Part shown: piece by piece, positions 50,061 to 60,778 of the stretch
Layout: every line of letters starts with the position of its first letter
How positions within the stretch are numbered: position 1 is the first letter of the stretch
NCBI GenBank assembly: GCA_963920525.1
Contig: OY986436.1
Location: 85,096,970-85,160,969 of the forward strand
DNA from: Dichetophora obliterata
Taxonomy: Eukaryota; Arthropoda; Insecta; Diptera; Sciomyzidae
Length of the DNA stretch: 64,000 bases
Reading direction: 5' to 3'
Position numbers and translations under genes: made by a program
The notes under the pieces: model-generated
Databases searched by the model: none
Seen by the model: the letters and a program-made list of their open reading frames with translations, nothing else
Told to the model about the DNA's origin: nothing

Positions 50061-52230
50061 TTATAACCATCCGGTGCGATTGATGAACGATAGGAGATTG
50101 TTGATTTTTGTTGTTGAGAGTTCCTCTAGGTTGCTGAGGAAGGGCCTGCCAAACGTTGTTAGTCTGGACCTGGCCAGGGCCGGGCAGGTGCACAGAAAGT
50201 GTGTAAGTGTTTCTTTTTCATTTGGGTCATCGCAGCTGCGACAGTGGGTGTTGAAAGGTAGTCCAATTCTCTCGGCATGAACTCCGATGCACCAGTGACC
50301 CGTAATAATAGCCGTTAATCTGGCTATGTCGTTCCGGGGCTTTGAGAGCATCTGTTGAGTTCTGCCTATGTTGTACAGGGGCCATATTTTTCTTGATGTG
50401 TTGCAGGTTGGTAGTTCTCTCCATCTACGACCGGCTAAGGTTAAGTAGTAAGAACGAATTCCTCCCTTGACTGTGTTAAGTGGAACTTCGACTGGTTCCA
50501 CTCTGGAAACGTCAAGGGAAGAACCCCGCCTGGCCAATTCATCCGCCTTTTGATTACCATAAATGTTCCTATGGCCGGAAACCCTGATTATGGTAATGCT
50601 AAGTTGGTGACTTAGCCGGGCCAGTTCATCCTTACACTGCCTTACCAGTTTGGAGTTAGTACTGATCGCAGCTAAAGATATAACGGCAGCTTGGCTATCC
50701 GTCAGAATAGCTGTGTTAAGGTGGTTGGTGTTAGCTCTCCTTAAGGTGCGACAAGCTTCTCTTATCGCAAAAAGCTCGGCCTGAAAGACGCTGGTTGAGG
50801 TTGGTAGACGAAAAGAGTCCGCCACCCCCAGTTTCTCAGAGTATATGCCCGCTCCCACTCCGCACTCCATCTTGGAGCCATCCGTGTAAAAGGACACATC
50901 GAAGGCTAGATCAATTCCCCCATTGCGCCATTCCACCCTGGTGGGAAACTTGGCTGTAAAGGATTTCGTGAAGTCGAGTTTGGGAGTGTCGTAGTCCGTT
51001 ATTCCAGGAATCAGTTCCCGAGGTAGCGGATTAAGAACGTTGCTGTGTCCATATGGTCTATTTCGCCAGTTGTACGACTCTCTAAGTCTGACTGCACTGT
51101 TTGTTGCAGTAAGCTTATTGTGTAAATCTATGGGGAGTAAATGTGTCAGGACATTAAGTGCATCAGTGGGGCATGAGCGGATACCCCCTGTGATACCTAT
51201 GCATGCGGATCGCTGGATCCGAGCTAGTTTTGTTGTGTTGTATGCTTTATTCAGTGCAGGCCACCATACTAGTGCACCATACGCCAAGATAGGTCGCACT
51301 ACCGCTGTGTATAGCCATAAGAGCATTTTTGGTTGAAGACCCTTTGTTCGATGTTAGTTTTCCAGCTTAGCTTAGGATCCAGAATGACACCTAGGTATTT
51401 TGCGCTACTGGATAGTGTTAGAGGTTGGTTGTTGAGCTTTGGAAGGACAAATTGTGGCGCTTTGGTTTTTGTGGTGAATAACATCAGTTCCGTATTGCTA
51501 GGGTTAACTCCTAGGCCGCACCTGGCAGCCCAGACACTGAGTTTTCCCAAAGCAACCTCCATTAGCTCACTGAGCGTAGAGGGGAACAGTCCTGACACCA
51601 TAACAACCACATCATCCGCATAAGCCACCACTTTGACCCCATTGCAATTTAGTGTATTAAGAAATTCATTCATGACGATGCGCCAGAGTAGGGGGGAGAT
51701 TACTCCTCCTTGCGGAGTACCCCTACTGACAAATCTCGTGAGTTGGCAGCCACCCAGGTCTGCCTGGATTATTCTGTTTCTGAGCATTGAGACTATCCAG
51801 TTTCTCACCGGTGCTTGTACACCAAGGTTGGTAAGAGAATCAAAAATGGCCCTAGTATGAATATTGTTAAAAGCCCCTTCTATGTCTAAGAAGGCCGCAA
51901 GAGTGTATTGTTTAAAGTAGATTGATCTTTCAATAGTGGTAATAACCTCGTGTAGGGCGGTATCTGTGGATCTGCCCTTGAGGTATGCGTGTTGGGCGCT
52001 GGATATGTTAGCATCCTTTAGAACGTCCCTGAGATGAATATTCAGTACACGCTCTACGGTTTTCAGTGCGAATGATGTGAGGCTTATTGGTCTAAAATCC
52101 TTGGCTGATTCGTGACCTCTCCTCCCAGCTTTGGGTATAAATATTACCTTAACTCTTCTCCAGCTCTTTGGAGTGTAGTTAAGGCAGAGACACTTAGTGA
52201 AGATAGAGAGTAGGATAGGTGCAACAATTA
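50061..52230 (-). pseudogene. LINE ORF2: RT + RNase H + zinc motif, one frameshift
   Basis: Two overlapping minus-strand frames, about 52230-51299 and 51326-50061, join through a single frameshift near 51300-51335. The first has the RT fingers-to-palm region: KVIFIPKAGRRG, AAFLDIEGAFNNIHTRAIF (first catalytic Asp), RGTPQGGVISPLLWRIVMNEF and VAYADDVVVM (catalytic YADD). The second (421 codons) holds thumb, connection, an RNase H with all expected acidic residues (FYTDGSK, QAELFAI, ILTDSQAA, NQKADELA), and a terminal zinc motif (CRSC with THFLCTCPAL). N-terminal endonuclease and ORF1 are missing through 5' truncation. Apart from the shift it is well preserved, hence fairly young. LOA/R1/I-type by domain order. 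Confidence 0.85.
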
Positions 52231-53062: not shown

Positions 53063-53376
53063 AGTTAAGTATCCCATTTGTATGATAACCATATGTTAAG
53101 AATAAACAATATTTAATTTAATGCTTTTCATATCAAAGTATGCTTTGTTTATAACTTGAATCATATTTCATTGTTGGGAATATGATTATGCTTTGTTTAT
53201 AACTTTAATCATATTTCATTGTTTATAACTAAGTCATGGGAATATTGATCGGATGATGTTTATGATCAAATTTCTTTATATGATAAATTCCTAAAAGTAT
53301 CTAAGTGTCCAAATACATTAATAAATGATATGTAATACATAAGTTTTATGTAAAGAAGTAAATAAGACAATTAAGG

Positions 53377-53413
53377 TATAAAAGAAGTATGAACTTAGAA
53401 TACTTCTTCAGTT
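53377..53413 (+). promoter_or_regulatory. LTR core promoter: TATA box plus initiator
   Basis: TATAAAA begins 33 bases before the A of TTCAGTT, the usual TATA-to-start spacing and an arthropod initiator match (TCAGT). The predicted transcription start is about 53408-53410; the same site exists in the 3' LTR. Confidence 0.7.
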
Positions 53414-53494
53414 GAGCTTCAGTTTCAGCTTCAGTTGAGTTTCAGTTTCAGTTTCAGTTCAGTTTCAGTTCAGTTCAGTTCAGTTCTTCAGTTG
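53406..53494 (+). repeat. TTCAGT array in LTR R region
   Basis: About twelve TCAGT cores spaced 5-12 bases apart, as ttcagt, tttcagt and ttcagttgag variants. They begin exactly at the predicted start site. Repeated identically in the 3' LTR (60597-60685). Confidence 0.85.
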
Positions 53495-53586
53495 TAATTT
53501 AGATAATAAGAATATTTTTGATTGTTAAGTTTGTTAAGAAATAAATAAAGATTTTTTTTAACAAAACCTAACATAAAAAATATAAT

Positions 53587-53604
53587 TGGCGATCCTGCCA
53601 GGAG
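53587..53604 (+). other. Primer-binding site, tRNA-Arg type
   Basis: TGGCGATCCTGCCAGGAG overlaps the last LTR base. Its reverse complement ends GGATCG-CCA and fits the 3' end of insect tRNA-Arg(ACG) as I remember it over 18 nt. Minus-strand DNA synthesis would start here. Confidence 0.7.
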
Positions 53605-53941
53605 AAGTGGAAATAAAAAATTAATCCAGAAATCAAAGTTAAAGTGAAAAAATCCGTAGCGAAACCATTCCTTTTTTAAGTCGTGGTCCCTCCTAGGATA
53701 AAAAATTAAAGTTAACTTTGGACAAGTTCCTGAAAACAACAGATCCCGAGAAAAAGTATTCCAGAAGGAAGAAAAATAAAGGACAAGATAAAAAGTAAGG
53801 AAAAAGGACAACCATTCCACCTCTCCAGGACCAAAACTAAATCACAGCGCGGAAACAGCATTAGCCTGCGAAAAAAACTGACAAAGCGAATATCCTGAAA
53901 ATAAGGAGCTAAAGTCATCTGTGAAAAACATCAAGTATCTT

Positions 53942-53953
53942 AACAAAGTAAGA
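53942..53953 (+). promoter_or_regulatory. Candidate 5' splice site in leader
   Basis: aacaaaGTAAGA: a strong donor (AAA/GTAAGA, cut after 53947), upstream of the gag ATG. Errantivirus env messages are made by splicing from the leader or early gag to a 3' site before env, so this is the natural partner for the acceptors at 58547 and 58781. Confidence 0.55.
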
Positions 53954-54063
53954 GAAATAAGAAAACTAATTTATATTTAAGAAATTAATAGCAATTAAGA
54001 ATAATCAAGCTGGAAGATATTTTAAATAAAATTACGGAAAATTTAAGAACACTACAAATCAAT

Positions 54064-55275
54064 ATGCCTGGCGAAAATAATACAGATTTAATTTCAAGGC
54101 TAATAGCCACAAGCACTGCAAACTTAAAAGCAGAGATTGAAGCGTTAAAAAATCAAATTCAAAATATGACATGCTCAAATATAGTCGCGGAATATAAAAC
54201 AGAAGAAATAGATGTAAATATTAGATGTGAAGAAACGTTAGAAGTTATAAGGTCACTACCAGAATTTAACGGTAAAAATTCCTATGTAAGTTGGCGAGAA
54301 GCCGCGAATAATACAATGTCTTTATATGAAAGGGGAAGTAAAAGATACTTTGCCGCCTTAACAATTCTCAGAAATAAAATAACTGGCGAAGCCAATGATC
54401 ACCTGACTAATCATGGCACAGTTTTAAATTACGACGCGATAATAAGTCGATTAGATTTTTCTTATTCGGATAAAAGGCCGATACATATTATTGAACAAGA
54501 ACTTAGCATTCTTCGTCAAGGTTCAATGAATATTTTAGATTATTATAATGTAGTTAACCAAAAATTAACGTTGTTAACAAATAAAACAATTATGACATAC
54601 GGTTCCAATAATCCAATTACTAAAGAATTAAATTTGAAAAATAGACAAAATGCTTTAAGAATATTTATAACAGGTTTAAATGGTAATTTGTCAAATATTT
54701 TATTCTCTTTATGTCCAGAGGATCTCCCAAATGCACTTGCGAAAGCTCAAGAGCTTGAATCTAATCAATTAAGAGCAAACTTCGCTCTACAATTCGGTAG
54801 GAATAGTAATATGAATAATTTAGGTCGAAATCAAAACCACTTACGATTTCCAGAATATAATAATAACAAAACGGTAAGAATGAACGGAATAGATTGGTCA
54901 CCTTGGCACGCAAGAAATGTGACAGTACCTCAAAGAACAATGAATACAATGTTCAAGTTGCTCCCTAGAACAGAACAACAACCACCTCCGGTTCCAATGG
55001 AAGTTGATCCATCAATTCAGTCTAGACCAACTCAAGCCTTCAATAGAAACAATAATAATAATACATTCAGACCATATAATAATAGTAATAACTTCAGGAC
55101 ATTCCAACCCAGGTACTATAATCAAAATAACTCACCAATAAAAAGGGGAAACGAAAGTATTCAACAACCAAATAAAATTCAAAGAGTTAACAAAATTAAT
55201 GAAAATACTTTTTTAGGAGGAGATATATCTTGCCCTACATCTTCGGGACAAGTAACTCAACAGGAAAAGAAATGA
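54064..55275 (+). CDS. gag: Gag polyprotein
   Basis: 403 codons from the first in-frame ATG after the leader. Residues 5-40 are helical and coiled-coil-like. The middle (about 70-250) resembles gypsy-type capsid Gag (PEFNGKNSYVSWREA, SILRQGSMNILDYY). The C-terminal 80 residues are rich in Asn, Arg and Pro. There is no CCHC zinc knuckle, as is common in errantiviruses, so RNA binding probably uses the basic Asn/Arg-rich tail. The 3' end overlaps pol in another frame and contains the TTTTTTA slippery site. Gag assembles the particle in the cytoplasm and packages the genomic RNA. Open with no interruption. Confidence 0.9.
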   Translation: MPGENNTDLISRLIATSTANLKAEIEALKNQIQNMTCSNIVAEYKTEEIDVNIRCEETLEVIRSLPEFNGKNSYVSWREAANNTMSLYERGSKRYFAALTILRNKITGEANDHLTNHGTVLNYDAIISRLDFSYSDKRPIHIIEQELSILRQGSMNILDYYNVVNQKLTLLTNKTIMTYGSNNPITKELNLKNRQNALRIFITGLNGNLSNILFSLCPEDLPNALAKAQELESNQLRANFALQFGRNSNMNNLGRNQNHLRFPEYNNNKTVRMNGIDWSPWHARNVTVPQRTMNTMFKLLPRTEQQPPPVPMEVDPSIQSRPTQAFNRNNNNNTFRPYNNSNNFRTFQPRYYNQNNSPIKRGNESIQQPNKIQRVNKINENTFLGGDISCPTSSGQVTQQEKK

Positions 55276-58200
55276 AGATACTAATAGATACGGGTGCTAC
55301 GAGTTGCTATTGTAGACCAGGAGCTGCAGTAAAAAAATATGAGCTCCCCATAAAAAAACAGGTTAAAACCATTAACGGGTACACAATAATTACCCATTTC
55401 GCTGAATTAACGTTATTAAATGTTAAGCAGAGATTCTATATAATAGATAACCTTGAAACAGATTTACTAATAGGGTTAAATTTTATAAAACAAAATAATA
55501 TAATGTTAGATTTTAAGAATTCACATTTAATCCATGAGAGATTAAAATATGATATAAAATATTTAGATAATGATGAAATTGTGGGACAAAATGATCCTAC
55601 AAAGCCAGTCGAAGGAAATACCGACAAGAAAAATATATTAAAGAAAAATGAATCAAAGAAAAATTATGTGGAATTTGAAAGAAATTCTACAACGCCAAGC
55701 GAAGTTAATACCGCTAATAAAAATACAAATCTGAGAAAGAATCTCAAAACGCCTAGCGAAGAAAATAATACCGCTAATAAGAATATAATTTTGAGTAAGA
55801 AACTCAAAACACCAAACCAATCAAGAATTAATAATATAATAAAAGAAAATGAATATACAAATCAAAGAAAATTGATTATTGAAGAGATAAGAGAATCTCA
55901 TAAGGAAATAAATATGAATTTACCTTTTAGAACGGATGTTAGAAGTGAAATTCGCACTACAGTAGAAACACCGATATGGTGTAAGCAATATCCTTATCCT
56001 TTATCTGTCAATACATTTGTAAATAAAGAAGTACAAAAATTGCTAAAGGAAAATATAATAAGACCAAGTAAGAGTCCATACAATTCACCAATATGGGTAG
56101 TACCGAAAAAAGGATTAAATGAGGATGGTACACCAAAATTAAGAATGGTAATTGATTTTAAAAAATTAAATGAATTAACTATATCAGATAGATATCCAAT
56201 ACCAGACGTTGGTATAATTTTAGCAAATTTAGGGAAAGCAAAAATTTTCTCTACTATTGATTTGGAATCAGGTTTCCATCAAATATTAATGAATGAAAGT
56301 GATATAGAAAAAACCGCATTTTCAGTAAATAATGGCAAATACGAATATGTTCGAATGCCATTCGGATTAAAAAACGCTCCAAGCATTTTTCAAAGAGCTA
56401 TGGATGATATATTAAGAGATTACATTGGAAAATTTTGTCATATATATATAGATGATATAATAATATTTTCAAAGGATATTGAAGAACATACAAAACATTT
56501 AAAAATAATAATTAAAACATTACGAGATGCTCATATGAAAATATCATTAGAAAAATCAACCTTTTACAAAAAAGAAATAGAATTTTTAGGATACGTAGTA
56601 GCAGAAAATGTTGTAAAAACGGATCCAAAGAAAATAGAAACAATCTCAAATTATCCGATACCTAATACATTAAGACAACTAAGAAGCTTTCTAGGACTAA
56701 CAGGATATTATCGAAAGTTTATAAAAAATTACGCAACAATAGCTAAACCACTCACGAAATACCTTTCAGGAGATAATGGAAGAATATCACAATATAAATC
56801 AAAAAAGACAGAAGTCAAACTAGATAATGAAGCTATTAAAGCTTGTAATAAATTAAAAAATGCTCTAAAAGAAAAAATAGAATTATATCAGCCGGATTAT
56901 AATAAAAAATTCACATTAACAACTGATGCTTCTAATATAGCGATAGGTGCTGTATTATCACAGGATAAAAATCCAATCATCTTTATTTCAAAAACACTGA
57001 ATGAAACAGAGCAAAGATATGCAACAAATGAAAAGGAATTATATGCAATAGTTTGGGCATTAAAGAATTTAAGAAACTACCTTTACGGTATATCAAACTT
57101 AGAAATTTATACAGATCATCAACCTTTGACATTTGCAGTTTCAATAAGAAATCCTAATGCAAAAATGAAAAGATGGCACGCATTTATAGAAGAATTTGCA
57201 CCAAAGATAATTTACAAACCAGGTTTAACCAATGTTGTAGCTGACGCATTATCCAGACAACAGTTAAACATTCTTTCAGATGAATCATCATCAATTCATT
57301 CAACAATACATTCAGCAGAGAGCAGTGATAATAGCCAAATAAAGGAAACAATGAAACCTTTGAATCAGTTTAAACAACAATTATTAATATCAAGTGGAGC
57401 TAGAATAACAGTCCACGAGCAAATACGTAATTTTGGAAAAACAAGACATCTTATAGAATACGACACCGTTGATAATTTAATTAATATTTTGAAAGAATAT
57501 TTACAACCAAATTTAGTAACAGCAATTCATTGTACAGTAGAAGACTTATATCAAATAAAAGATAAAATCAAAGAAACATTTACAAATAAATTTTTATATA
57601 CAAAGAAATTCCCAATGGATATAATTAATAGAGACGATCAAGGATCAATTATAGAACAAACACATAATAGAGCTCATCGGAATGATAAAGAAAATATTAA
57701 ACAAATAGAATCAAAATATTATTGGCCAGAAATGTATAAACAATTTAAACAATTTGTAAAAAATTGCGAAATATGTAATGAAAATAAATATGATAGAAAA
57801 CCAAAAAAGATACCAATAGGAGAAACTCCAATACCGAATACAGAAGGAGAACAAATACATTTAGATATTTTCTTTGCACAAAACTTAATATTTCTTACAA
57901 GTATAGATTACTATTCAAAATATCTTGTAGTAAAACAAATTGAGGATAAAACAAATCTAGAAGAAAAAACAATGGAGATATTGCAAAACTTTCCAGAAAT
58001 TAAAAAGATAACAGTTGATAATGAACCAGGATTCAGTACACCACAATTTAAAGCATTAATGAATAGAATGAAAATTGAAATATTTTATTGTGATCCAAAA
58101 CACAGTTTGACGAATGGTCAAATTGAAAGAGCACATTCAACTTTAATAGAAATAGCAAGATGTTTGCAAAAGGAACATGAATTAATAAGTTATTCCGAAA

Positions 58201-58526
58201 TAATATATAGAGCAACAACTCAATATAATAAAACAATTCACTCAGTTACAAAAAAGAAACCATTTGAAGTCCTCTTTAATAAAGTACAACATGACAATTT
58301 ACCTACAGAATTAACGAATAATCAATCAAAAATGTTGCAGTTCCATAATAAAAAAAGAGTTATAAAAACATATCAAAATGGAGACATAATATACGAAAAA
58401 ATTGTTACGGAAAGAAATAAATTAAGACCACGTTATAAAAAACAAAAAGTAAAAGAAGATTTAGGGAATAAAGTTAAAATCTATAATAGAGATAGAATCG
58501 TTCACAAAGACAACATTAAAAATTAA
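55203..58526 (+). CDS. pol: Pol polyprotein: protease, RT, RNase H, integrase
   Basis: Open from 55203, entered by -1 frameshifting; numbering here is from TTG at 55230 (1098 codons). Protease: ILIDTGATS with catalytic Asp at about 20. A linker (about 110-240) holds a 19-20 residue tandem repeat at 155-193. RT: STIDLESGFHQ (Asp about 344), FGLKNAPSIFQ and YIDD (406-409). RNase H: TTDASN (Asp about 566) and YTDHQPLTF (Asp about 629). Integrase: zinc motif with H812 and H816 and CEIC at 846-849, then Asp about 879, Asp about 930 and Glu about 966, giving a D,D(35)E triad. The C-terminal basic region has no chromodomain. All catalytic residues are present, so it should copy and integrate the element. 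Confidence 0.93.
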   Translation, partial: KYFFRRRYILPYIFGTSNSTGKEMKILIDTGATSCYCRPGAAVKKYELPIKKQVKTINGYTIITHFAELTLLNVKQRFYIIDNLETDLLIGLNFIKQNNIMLDFKNSHLIHERLKYDIKYLDNDEIVGQNDPTKPVEGNTDKKNILKKNESKKNYVEFERNSTTPSEVNTANKNTNLRKNLKTPSEENNTANKNIILSKKLKTPNQSRINNIIKENEYTNQRKLIIEEIRESHKEINMNLPFRTDVRSEIRTTVETPIWCKQYPYPLSVNTFVNKEVQKLLKENIIRPSKSPYNSPIWVVPKKGLNEDGTPKLRMVIDFKKLNELTISDRYPIPDVGIILANLGKAKIFSTIDLESGFHQILMNESDIEKTAFSVNNGKYEYVRMPFGLKNAPSIFQRAMDDILRDYIGKFCHIYIDDIIIFSKDIEEHTKHLKIIIKTLRDAHMKISLEKSTFYKKEIEFLGYVVAENVVKTDPKKIETISNYPIPNTLRQLRSFLGLTGYYRKFIKNYATIAKPLTKYLSGDNGRISQYKSKKTEVKLDNEAIKACNKLKNALKEKIELYQPDYNKKFTLTTDASNIAIGAVLSQDKNPIIFISKTLNETEQRYATNEKELYAIVWALKNLRNYLYGISNLEIYTDHQPLTFAVSIRNPNAKMKRWHAFIEEFAPKIIYKPGLTNVVADALSRQQLNILSDESSSIHSTIHSAESSDNSQIKETMKPLNQFKQQLLISSGARITVHEQIRNFGKTRHLIEYDTVDNLINILKEYLQPNLVTAIHCTVEDLYQIKDKIKETFTNKFLYTKKFPMDIINRDDQGSIIEQTHNRAHRNDKENIKQIESKYYWPEMYKQFKQFVKNCEICNENKYDRKPKKIPIGETPIPNTEGEQIHLDIFFAQNLIFLTSIDYYSKYLVVKQIEDKTNLEEKTMEILQNFPEIKKITVDNEPGFSTPQFKALMNRMKIEIFYCDPKHSLTNGQIERAHSTLIEIARCLQKEHELISYSEIIYRATTQYNKTIHSVTKKKPFEVLFNKVQHDNLPTELTNNQSKMLQFHNKKRVIKTYQNGDIIYEKIVTERNKLRPRYKKQKVKEDLGNKVKIYNRDRIVHKDNIKN
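55209..55252 (+). promoter_or_regulatory. -1 ribosomal frameshift signal (slippery site + hairpin)
   Basis: T TTT TTA at 55209-55215 is in the correct gag phase for a -1 slip. The pol frame is closed by TGA at 55200-55202 and gag ends at 55275, so the shift must occur inside this 70-base window. A hairpin follows 13 nt later: CTTGCCC (55229-55235) pairs with GGGaCAAG (55245-55252) with one bulged A and a 9-nt loop. Confidence 0.75.
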
Positions 58527-58530
58527 TAAC

Positions 58531-58548
58531 GAATAATTTCATTTTAGA
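58531..58548 (+). promoter_or_regulatory. Candidate 3' splice site before small ORF
   Basis: gaataatttcattttag followed by aATG: AG at 58546-58547, one base before the start codon of the 71-codon ORF. T-rich tract and distance fit a fly acceptor. Confidence 0.5.
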
Positions 58549-58764
58549 ATGAATCCTAAACAAATTATTACCCAAGAAGACGTGGACATGCCTTTAAGTT
58601 CTGAAGAACCAGTCATGGTATCCAAATCAGAAAATGCACAGATTATAATGTTCATAGATGAAGCTATGGTAGAATTTTTACGAAGTCATGAAATTGTAAT
58701 GAGAAATAGGCGTATAGCTAGAAGAGAACGCAGAAGAATAATGCAAAACAATAATGTATATTAA
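58549..58764 (+). CDS. Small arginine-rich protein (accessory ORF)
   Basis: 71 codons between pol (stop 58526) and env (start 58782), in a frame separate from pol. Residues 1-30 are acidic and polar. Residues 31-46 are hydrophobic-helical (IIMFIDEAMVEFL), with spaced Ile/Met/Phe/Leu as in a leucine-rich export signal. Residues 52-63 carry eight arginines in twelve (RNRRIARRERRR), an arginine-rich motif of the kind that binds structured RNA and acts as a nuclear localisation signal. A 3' splice site abuts the ATG. I do not recognise it as a named family. By position and composition it could be a post-transcriptional regulator of Rev type, or an extra basic Gag-independent RNA-binding factor. 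Alternatively it is a leader peptide or chance ORF, although the very recent provirus gives little time for a false ORF to be distinguished by decay. Confidence 0.6.
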   Translation: MNPKQIITQEDVDMPLSSEEPVMVSKSENAQIIMFIDEAMVEFLRSHEIVMRNRRIARRERRRIMQNNNVY

Positions 58765-58781
58765 ATTCTCTTTCATTATAG
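58765..58781 (+). promoter_or_regulatory. Candidate 3' splice site before env
   Basis: attctctttcattatag directly followed by the env ATG (58782). Strong pyrimidine tract and AG; the splice would put the start codon at the first base of the exon. Confidence 0.65.
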
Positions 58782-60242
58782 ATGCTACAATTATTAATAA
58801 TTTTATTACTCACCATATACGCAAAATCAGAAGTCTTGGATATAATTGATTATACAAGAGACAATTATATACTAATAGAAAATAGCAAGGCTATAATATA
58901 TGAAGAATTTGGAGAATTATTTCATGTCACTAACTTAACGTACTACAATACAATAATAGAAAGTTATAAAAAGAATAAAATAATTAAAGGGAGTAAAATA
59001 TCTGAAAATTCAAGAATAATTACATCAGAAAATGATGAAAATGATTTAGAAATTGGATTAATTGAAATTTTGCTAAGCCAATTACAAAAACAAAAGAACA
59101 TTAAGAAAAATAGAATAATCAAAAGAGGAATTAATGAAATAGGTACAATTTGGAAATGGATAGCAGGAACACCAGATCATGATGATATGGTTAATATAAA
59201 TACAAAATTAGAAGAGCTAGTCCAAAATAATAATAAACAATTTGTCATAAATTCAGAAATTTTTAAAGCAATTCAAGAAATTCACACAACAATTAAAGAT
59301 TTACCTAATTCATCAAATTTAAAATTTTTAACAAAAAAGAGAAACCAATTGATACTCAACGAATTACATAATGTAATTTTTACAATAACATTAGCTAAAG
59401 CAGGAATCTTGAGCCCAGTTATTTTACATCTTGACGAAATTAAGGAAATAATTAAACATGAATACGAAAGAATAACAATTGTAGATTTATTAGACGTTTC
59501 TACATTTAAAATTGTTCAAAATAAAGATTTAATTGTAATATATATTAAATATCCAATTGCTATAAAAAATTGTAAATTTTTTGAAACAAGGGCAATAAGC
59601 CAAAATAATGGGAAATTAATAATTCCACCAGAAATAATTAAATGTAATAAAATATTTGAAAATGTCAAAAATTGTAAAAAAGAATTATCGAACACATTTT
59701 GTAAATTGAATAAAGAAAAGACATGTTTATCAGAAATTCTAAATAATAAAAAAGGCAAATGCACCAAAATTAAAGAATCAAATAAGAATATTGAAATTAT
59801 AAAAGATGGAGCCATATTGTTAAGTGGTAACCATACCGTAAATGATGTTAAATTAAATGGAATTTATCTTGTAACATTTAATGATAATATAATAATTGAC
59901 AATGAAACATATTTTAATGAAAAAGATATAATTTATAATTATATAAAAAATAATAATTTTAATGATTTTGATATTGTTAATTACATAGAAAATGACATTG
60001 AAAAAGATATGGAAAATATAAATTTATTAACATTAAGTAAAACATATACAAATGTAAAACATTCAATTTGGAGTCTGACAGGTTTAATAACACTTGCAAT
60101 AATAATGTTTATCTCTTATAAAGTAATTAAATATTTTTTAATTAAAAGAAATCAAAAAACTGAAGACATTGAATTTAAAGTAATACAAGGAAAAATTGAA
60201 AATTTCACAAAAGAGATAACAAACCGGGACGTTTTGTCTTGA
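58782..60242 (+). CDS. env: Envelope glycoprotein (errantivirus Env / baculovirus F-like)
   Basis: 486 codons. A hydrophobic signal peptide covers residues 1-15. The basic site RIIKR at 111-115 fits furin-type cleavage and is followed by GINEIGTIWKWIAGT (from 116), the fusion-peptide pattern shared by errantivirus Env and baculovirus F proteins. The ectodomain is Asn-rich, with sequons such as NLT (52) and several more, and a Cys-rich cluster at about 270-335. A membrane anchor lies at about 431-452, with a basic cytoplasmic tail of some 35 residues. Fully open. Family knowledge: F-type Env is a class I fusion protein that can let errantiviruses move between cells. Expression is expected from a spliced message using the acceptor just before the ATG. 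Confidence 0.88.
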   Translation: MLQLLIILLLTIYAKSEVLDIIDYTRDNYILIENSKAIIYEEFGELFHVTNLTYYNTIIESYKKNKIIKGSKISENSRIITSENDENDLEIGLIEILLSQLQKQKNIKKNRIIKRGINEIGTIWKWIAGTPDHDDMVNINTKLEELVQNNNKQFVINSEIFKAIQEIHTTIKDLPNSSNLKFLTKKRNQLILNELHNVIFTITLAKAGILSPVILHLDEIKEIIKHEYERITIVDLLDVSTFKIVQNKDLIVIYIKYPIAIKNCKFFETRAISQNNGKLIIPPEIIKCNKIFENVKNCKKELSNTFCKLNKEKTCLSEILNNKKGKCTKIKESNKNIEIIKDGAILLSGNHTVNDVKLNGIYLVTFNDNIIIDNETYFNEKDIIYNYIKNNNFNDFDIVNYIENDIEKDMENINLLTLSKTYTNVKHSIWSLTGLITLAIIMFISYKVIKYFLIKRNQKTEDIEFKVIQGKIENFTKEITNRDVLS

Positions 60243-60253
60243 AAAATGGGGGG
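60243..60253 (+). other. Polypurine tract
   Basis: aaaatgggggg directly after the env stop codon and directly before the 3' LTR; serves as the plus-strand primer. One T interrupts the purines. Confidence 0.85.
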
Positions 60254-60778
60254 AGTTAAGTATCCCATTTGTATGATAACCATATGTTAAGAATAAACAA
60301 TATTTAATTTAATGCTTTTCATATCAAAGTATGCTTTGTTTATAACTTGAATCATATTTCATTGTTGGGAATATGATTATGCTTTGTTTATAACTTTAAT
60401 CATATTTCATTGTTTATAACTAAGTCATGGGAATATTGATCGGATGATGTTTATGATCAAATTTCTTTATATGATAAATTCCTAAAAGTATCTAAGTGTC
60501 CAAATACATTAATAAATGATATGTAATACATAAGTTTTATGTAAAGAAGTAAATAAGACAATTAAGGTATAAAAGAAGTATGAACTTAGAATACTTCTTC
60601 AGTTGAGCTTCAGTTTCAGCTTCAGTTGAGTTTCAGTTTCAGTTTCAGTTCAGTTTCAGTTCAGTTCAGTTCAGTTCTTCAGTTGTAATTTAGATAATAA
60701 GAATATTTTTGATTGTTAAGTTTGTTAAGAAATAAATAAAGATTTTTTTTAACAAAACCTAACATAAAAAATATAATT
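60254..60778 (+). repeat. 3' LTR
   Basis: 525 bp, identical by eye to the 5' LTR, including TATA box, TTCAGT array (60597-60685) and AATAAA signals (60731-60740), which would process the viral RNA 3' end here. Confidence 0.93.

Follow-up and report, generated by a model that had tools for sequence, protein, structure and literature searches.

A small conserved gene, probably spliced, between pol and env in one errantivirus lineage of Dichetophora obliterata

The stretch of DNA analysed here, 64,000 nucleotides that we call the window (C2:85096970-85160969 of a 1.31-Gb genome), contains a provirus in which gag, pol and env are all open and are enclosed by a pair of long terminal repeats (LTRs; Table 1). 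Five contigs of 216-317 Mb each account for most of this genome. The element shows paired LTRs, a short target duplication, the gene order gag-pol-env and an env resembling baculovirus F, as is expected of an errantivirus; the duplication, read by eye, is the 4-bp TGCA at both outer LTR ends. Errantiviruses are usually treated as simple, with the three genes gag, pol and env. The relative of this env that carries an organism name is from Drosophila pseudoobscura.

Table 1. Features of the provirus and its predicted signals, in window coordinates (a slash marks an exon boundary)
Feature	Position	Strand	Remarks
Errantivirus provirus	53063-60778	+	gag-pol-env between paired LTRs
5' LTR, 525 bp	53063-53587	+	same as 3' LTR; TATAAA at 53377, initiator-like TCAGTT at 53408
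Leader, presumed transcription start to gag ATG	53408-54063	+	start inferred from TATA and initiator
Two candidate splice donors	53794-53947	+	exon ends 53794 (AAA/GTAAGG) and 53947 (AAA/GTAAGA)
gag, 403 codons	54064-55275	+	without Pfam match
pol	55230-58526	+	protease, reverse transcriptase, RNase H, integrase; first ATG 55272
Predicted splice acceptor of small gene	58527-58547	+	ends ...TTTCATTTTAG/A; exon start 58548
Accessory ORF, 71 codons	58549-58764	+	acidic Ser-rich N-terminus, long predicted helix, Arg-rich C-terminus
Predicted env splice acceptor	58766-58781	+	TTCTCTTTCATTATAG; adjoins env ATG; exon start 58782
env, 486 codons	58782-60242	+	signal peptide-like start; Pfam Gypsy PF07253 (2.8e-52)
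3' LTR, 525 bp	60254-60778	+	same as 5' LTR

Between pol and env lies a further open reading frame (ORF), which the original prediction took for an accessory gene of an intact errantivirus, served by a separate upstream splice acceptor. The present data support an accessory gene with a predicted acceptor of this kind in an errantivirus that is intact in other respects. The 71-codon frame itself is confirmed as open and ATG-started, and once gag, pol and env are set aside no other ATG ORF on the sense strand of the element exceeds 31 codons. The chance that a closed ATG ORF of at least 71 codons would arise in the 255-nt spacer between pol and env was estimated at 0.00045 to 0.0014 (three Markov models, 20,000 trials each). 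Codon usage favours the ORF's own frame by 15.0 and 29.4 bits against the two other frames, as compared to means of 25.4 (sd 6.5) and 27.1 (sd 8.2) for true-frame reference pieces and of -23.5 to 11.6 for wrong-frame ones. Homology to gag, pol or env was rejected (best E 0.08), the comparison with gag giving no significant match, and an extension of pol or env is ruled out by the different frame and the ORF's own stop. The two LTRs have zero differences and the element must therefore have inserted recently, so that an open ORF in this single copy proves nothing alone and relatives are needed to decide.

A search of the host genome with the ORF returned at least 43 matches, fragments included. 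The ORF region is present in 15 copies of the window's own family, which we call family A. The frame is intact in 12 of these; of the remainder, two carry a frameshift and one a stop. A second family, B, was found in 27 copies with a homologue in the same place between pol and env, mostly 42-50% identical to the A protein, while the env of the best copies is 67-68% identical to that of A. Of the B homologues, 26 align over most of their length and one is frameshifted, and 24, counting L042 (C3:229525054), which has lost its end, lack an internal stop; these counts are not independent, because the B copies, like those of family C below, are near-duplicates. Stops in most copies, which the original prediction had named as evidence against the gene, are thus found in neither family.

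The third family, C, has an env identity of 77-78% and was reached via env, not via the small gene; genome searches with the A and B small proteins did not reach it at E <= 0.001. Its pol-env gap of about 520 nt holds two tandem homologues, C1 then C2, which were recognised in a tblastn search of 19 loci by weak but positioned matches, the best E being 8e-5 (C2) and 8e-4 (C1). C1 is decayed, its start codon being absent by eye and a stop being present in all five loci (L052-L056). C2 is open in four of the same five, and the tandem may possibly reflect gene replacement by duplication. Two arrangements were noted in passing. Three B copies (L031-L033, C3:96155429-96171630) are spaced exactly 7308 bp apart, apparently as a head-to-tail provirus tandem array, and two C env copies of equal score lie 16,278 bp apart (C3:112465090 and C3:112481368), perhaps through a local duplication of host DNA.

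We examined the substitutions in the ORF between and within these families. Over 65 codons, mismatches between A and B number 17, 11 and 42 at codon positions 1, 2 and 3; two alternative alignments put the third-position count at 40 and 43. Of the 65 residues, 34 are identical, as against a mean of 21.8 and a maximum of 30 under the null in 5000 trials. Judged from the sequences, this pattern is the signature of a selected protein. In the eight B loci compared out of 26 fetched, pN/pS between A and B is 0.34-0.45 for the small ORF; the end of pol is similar at 0.30-0.51, and the start of env gives 0.27-0.36. A third-position excess is also seen for A-C2 (P 0.002) and B-C2 (P 0.0017); that of B-C1, one of the six pairs among A, B, C2 and C1, is not significant (P 0.064). 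Within B, relative to L028, omega is 0.27-0.44 in three of six copies, the other three having too few changes.

Within family A the picture differs. No purifying selection on the ORF was seen in the four copies compared out of the 14 others, which offer 2 to 13 substitutions per pair: the two open copies that have diverged furthest give omega values of 0.87 and 1.85, L019 and L021 have 9.5-11.5 non-synonymous against 1.5-2.5 synonymous changes, and L014 and L018 have 2-3 against 0. In these four copies the ORF changes look neutral, or faster than those of pol and env, which may reflect relaxed constraint, rapid host-driven change or old dead copies. The neutral dN/dS that was to speak against the gene is absent between A and B, and within A the changes look neutral. 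It could be argued that the ORF is not a working protein and instead adjusts env translation as an upstream ORF, or is a remnant in decay, given that it ends 17 nt before the env ATG, that the changes within A look neutral and that C1 has decayed. Conservation at the protein level, between A and B and with C2, is not expected of a remnant or of an ORF that matters by its length only, and we hold this explanation to be very improbable. A chance ORF is ruled out by the spacer statistics together with the A-B conservation test. The small ORF is very probably a real, selected gene.

The product of the A gene would be a protein of about 70 residues, with zero cysteines in the translation as read directly. 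The dense arginine cluster that was reported for it is confirmed at residues 52-63 (RNRRIARRERRR), where eight of 12 residues are arginine. Such a density occurs at a frequency of 2e-5 among 50,000 shuffles of the ORF's own composition, and the maximum in any 12 residues is 2 in gag, 3 in pol and 2 in env. A single-sequence structure model predicts one helix over residues 26-68 (mean pLDDT 84.3), and the hydrophobic helix appears amphipathic by eye (P 0.06 in a shuffle test of its moment).

This arrangement recalls the sORF2/FAST proteins of MDG1-group retrotransposons, small membrane fusogens whose roughly 30 outer residues are followed by a hydrophobic stretch and then by a juxtamembrane basic patch (PMC11952523). 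The present protein matches them in length and in the order of its parts (about 29 residues, a hydrophobic helix, a basic cluster), with the eight arginines of residues 52-63 adjoining the hydrophobic stretch in A, a patch that is lost in B; and sORF2 is placed downstream of pol in 7 of 22 lepidopteran consensus sequences in the same account (PMC11952523). The hydrophobic part, however, does not behave as a membrane segment. Its best 19-residue Kyte-Doolittle mean is 0.99 in A and 0.96 in B, which is not that of a transmembrane helix, as compared to 1.9-2.0 for the ends of env by the same script; its octanol energy is +6.0 kcal/mol; and residues 30-51 include six charged or His residues. A transmembrane or FAST-like protein was rejected. 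The N-myristoylation motif MGxxxS/T is absent from the start of the ORF, as it is from some known sORF2/FAST members, and the element already has an env. A fusogen is thus largely refuted, and we give it hardly any credence.

Comparison of the families shows which parts of the protein are kept. The best conserved region is an N-terminal motif around P.SS.EP..VS.SE together with the start of the helix, shared across A, B and C2 and partly by C1. Arginines per 12 residues number 8 in A, 6 in C2, 4 in C1 (6 when R and K are counted) and at most 3 in B, and hence the arginine-rich helix, present in A and C2, is not kept across the relatives. Since B keeps the gene without the cluster, the cluster does not define the gene, and the idea that an arginine-rich motif is its defining function finds no support in the form proposed. 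The same distribution would suit a protein that antagonises a host factor, whereby the acidic Ser-rich motif and the helix dock a host protein, for example one of small-RNA silencing or nuclear transport, and disable or recruit it, the basic end being only a localisation signal. Such a role would agree with the N-terminal motif as the part best conserved across A, B, C2 and partly C1, with the loss of the basic end in B, and with fast, neutral-like change within A, as might be expected of a protein that meets the host. On the other hand, no host partner motif was identified in the protein, and the fast change within A is a matter of 2 to 13 substitutions per pair. We regard a host-factor antagonist as an unlikely but credible reading.

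Expression of the gene can be considered from its predicted signals, which were ranked with a generic splice-site matrix. By this matrix the first of the two leader donors ranks 7 of 206 GT sites and the second ranks 15, and the env acceptor ranks 7 of 433 AG sites. The upstream acceptor claimed for the small gene does exist, at a middling rank of 42 of 433; it is unchanged in 14 of the 15 A copies, with one base changed in L023. Two leader donors, one GTAAGG and one GTAAGA, are common to A, B and C, B also has an acceptor at the end of pol as A does, and of 41 loci in the two families 39 have [CT]AG adjoining the env ATG (the exceptions are L040 and L042). The A leader has no ATG from 53389 to the gag ATG at 54064, so that translation of a spliced message would begin at whichever ATG comes first in exon 2. 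Two C leaders likewise have none between the presumed start and gag, and C2 has no clear acceptor beside its ATG by eye.

In family B the start codon itself may depend on the junction. The donors of 17 further B leaders end in A throughout (the first donor is present in 17/17 and both in 15/17). On the acceptor side, a pattern match finds 22 of 26 loci in which GCAG is followed by an exon that opens with TG, and inspection by eye adds L043. Splicing would therefore create a start codon, and the predicted junction reads ATG followed by L-P-[I/V]-I-T, matching the start of the A protein. Of the 15 leaders with both donors, 14 have no ATG before the second donor in the 701 bp read, L096 having some. 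At locus L050 there is none from the presumed start to the second donor and one between that donor and gag; at L051 one precedes the first donor and one lies between the donors. In 13 of 26 B loci, moreover, the frame has an ATG ahead of the acceptor, where it overlaps the end of pol, and another ATG lies inside the ORF. An unspliced start is therefore possible in B, and these 13 loci lower our estimate for splicing. On the predicted sites as a whole, the small gene is nonetheless quite probably made by splicing as set out here.

Taken together, the data make us lean somewhat towards a genuine accessory gene of one errantivirus lineage, spliced, whose product is perhaps RNA-binding or an adaptor to a host factor. 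One of the two leader donors would be joined to the acceptor at the end of pol to give a singly spliced RNA for the small gene, and the same donors would be joined to the next acceptor to give env RNA. In A the small ORF would be the first start in its message, and in B the splice would make the start codon. The product would be a soluble protein of about 70 residues, made up of the acidic Ser-rich motif and a single long helix, to which A and C add a basic end. As an adaptor, it might bind a host factor by its conserved N-terminus and element RNA by its basic helix, in the latter case affecting splicing balance or the way in which unspliced or env RNA is exported or translated. Contact with RNA through the basic helix would fit A and C, and contact with a host factor through the N-terminus would fit A, B and C. 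That RNA binding is the main action of the product seems rather doubtful.

Rev and other arginine-rich-motif proteins of complex retroviruses are small, are made from spliced RNA and carry an arginine-rich helix. The A protein resembles them in being small, predicted to be spliced and provided with such a helix, a likeness of general features and not of aligned sequences; unlike Rev, it has no sequence match among PDB sequences and its basic cluster is not kept in B. A strict Rev equivalent would bind a structured element in its own RNA by the arginine helix and export unspliced RNA through a receptor. The 8 of 12 arginines in A and 6 of 12 in C2 would serve this purpose, unspliced RNA would compete with the two predicted splice routes, and a precedent exists in CERV of the Cer1 element, an LTR-element protein described as needed for genomic RNA export (PMC10309623). 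Against this, the cluster is absent from B, and the export-signal pattern is uninformative, in that three of ten pattern classes match the ORF and 97.7% of shuffles match as well. RNA fold stability was scanned in 90 windows, a measure of stability that is no test for a response element: the lowest z, -4.4, is at 53483-53632, at the LTR end and primer-binding region, two overlapping windows near the start of pol reach -3.3 and -3.5, and none in env falls below -1.6. Because the export pattern is no better than chance and env has no stably folded window, a strict Rev equivalent, possible as it is, is not favoured, and we consider it improbable. In a looser version, the element would be a 'complex' insect retrovirus in which the spliced pol-env gene, with two donors and two acceptors, controls its own unspliced RNA in a Rev-like manner while its RNA-contacting end is quickly remodelled between families, B lacking what A and C have gained or kept. 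This version, too, we think unlikely, if slightly less so.

The history of the gene was traced with env and pol trees. In the env tree (12 carrier and 8 other rows, L061 and L064 dropped for short matches) the carriers form one clade (97/95), inside which A and C stand together (95/95). The pol tree places L061 next to the carriers as the nearest non-carrier and leaves A, B and C in no resolved order. Other errantivirus families leave no space for such an ORF between pol and env in any of the 11 loci whose pol end and env start could both be located (L058, L060, L062, L063, L064, L066, L067, L068, L069, L071 and L072, of which L062-L064 are near-copies); L059, L065, L070, L073 and L074, with a pol or env end missing, damaged or rearranged, were left out. 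In L061 the pol stop is followed after only 76 nt by env residue 88; this locus lacks the env start and is too damaged to inform on the gain. Since the 11 loci have no room for the gene, a single gain is probable, in the common ancestor of the three families and at a site before the env acceptor and after the pol stop, with a later duplication in C; one gain plus the C duplication is the simplest history.

Searches of protein databases and viral contigs found no homologue outside this genome. Protein databases yielded nothing with the ORF itself and, with nine aligned homologues, 27 candidates that all had E above 1. No relatives came from scanning viral contigs with env, with aligned env or with integrase, nor from one scan of genome contigs with aligned env. 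The sole viral-contig match to the ORF (L001, 56% over residues 45-71) has no provirus-like surroundings within 1.6 kb and was dropped as chance. In the PDB the ORF weakly matched three unrelated proteins (best E 0.24) and the alignment matched none; Pfam returned nothing for the ORF itself and two weak hits when other members were used (best E 0.084). In the open-licence literature, searched by titles and abstract openings, we found no description of an errantivirus gene located between pol and env; that scope does not include Chary and Hayashi's 2025 survey, cited in PMC13172572, of 289 metazoan errantiviruses.

Small accessory proteins of related elements have been described, and by analogy with them such proteins can be real and important. 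The MDG1 group (412, mdg1, Stalker) encodes sORF1 and sORF2, of about 110 and 70 residues, which have low non-synonymous rates (PMC11952523). Both these and the present ORF encode short accessory proteins of insect Ty3/gypsy-type elements. In Drosophila, sORF1 and sORF2 lie upstream of gag, the passages of PMC11952523 that describe them report no splicing, and sORF2 is transmembrane; unlike them, the present ORF lies between pol and env of an env-bearing element, is predicted to be spliced and is not transmembrane. CERV of Cer1, from C. elegans, is assembled from five exons, has peptides in common with Gag and carries a candidate Cys finger (PMC10309623). It is like the present product in being a spliced accessory protein (predicted to be so here) of a Ty3/gypsy-family element from the region downstream of pol, and unlike it in that the present ORF is one coding exon without cysteine or significant gag match. 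The Drosophila errantiviruses of the ZAM, Beagle, springer and idefix subclades share the LTR-gag-pol-env layout, and their env is made from spliced RNA, as is predicted here, with a first exon that differs by subclade, that of springer supplying an AU dinucleotide (PMC12992720). Unlike the present element, they are described with gag, pol and env-F, and the terms sORF, small ORF and accessory do not occur in the main text of that paper (PMC12992720).

A selected and probably spliced fourth gene, if such it is, would imply that insect retroviruses arrived independently at the accessory-gene layout of complex vertebrate retroviruses. It would also offer a natural case for studying unspliced RNA export or the response to host silencing in elements of this kind. 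The lineage has been recently active, as this copy has identical LTRs and several copies are open. The single apparent gain, the duplication in C, the loss of the basic end in B and the predicted splice-made start should make the gene easy to follow across fly genomes.

Two further observations concern the element and its surroundings. Some retroviruses are A-rich on the coding strand, and so is this element, strongly, with an AT skew of +0.24 to +0.26 in three 2-kb windows (54001-60000) as compared to -0.12 to +0.13 elsewhere in the window. Adjoining the provirus, on the minus strand at 50061-51808, is a LINE-like fragment in which two abutting frames carry reverse transcriptase and RNase H domains.
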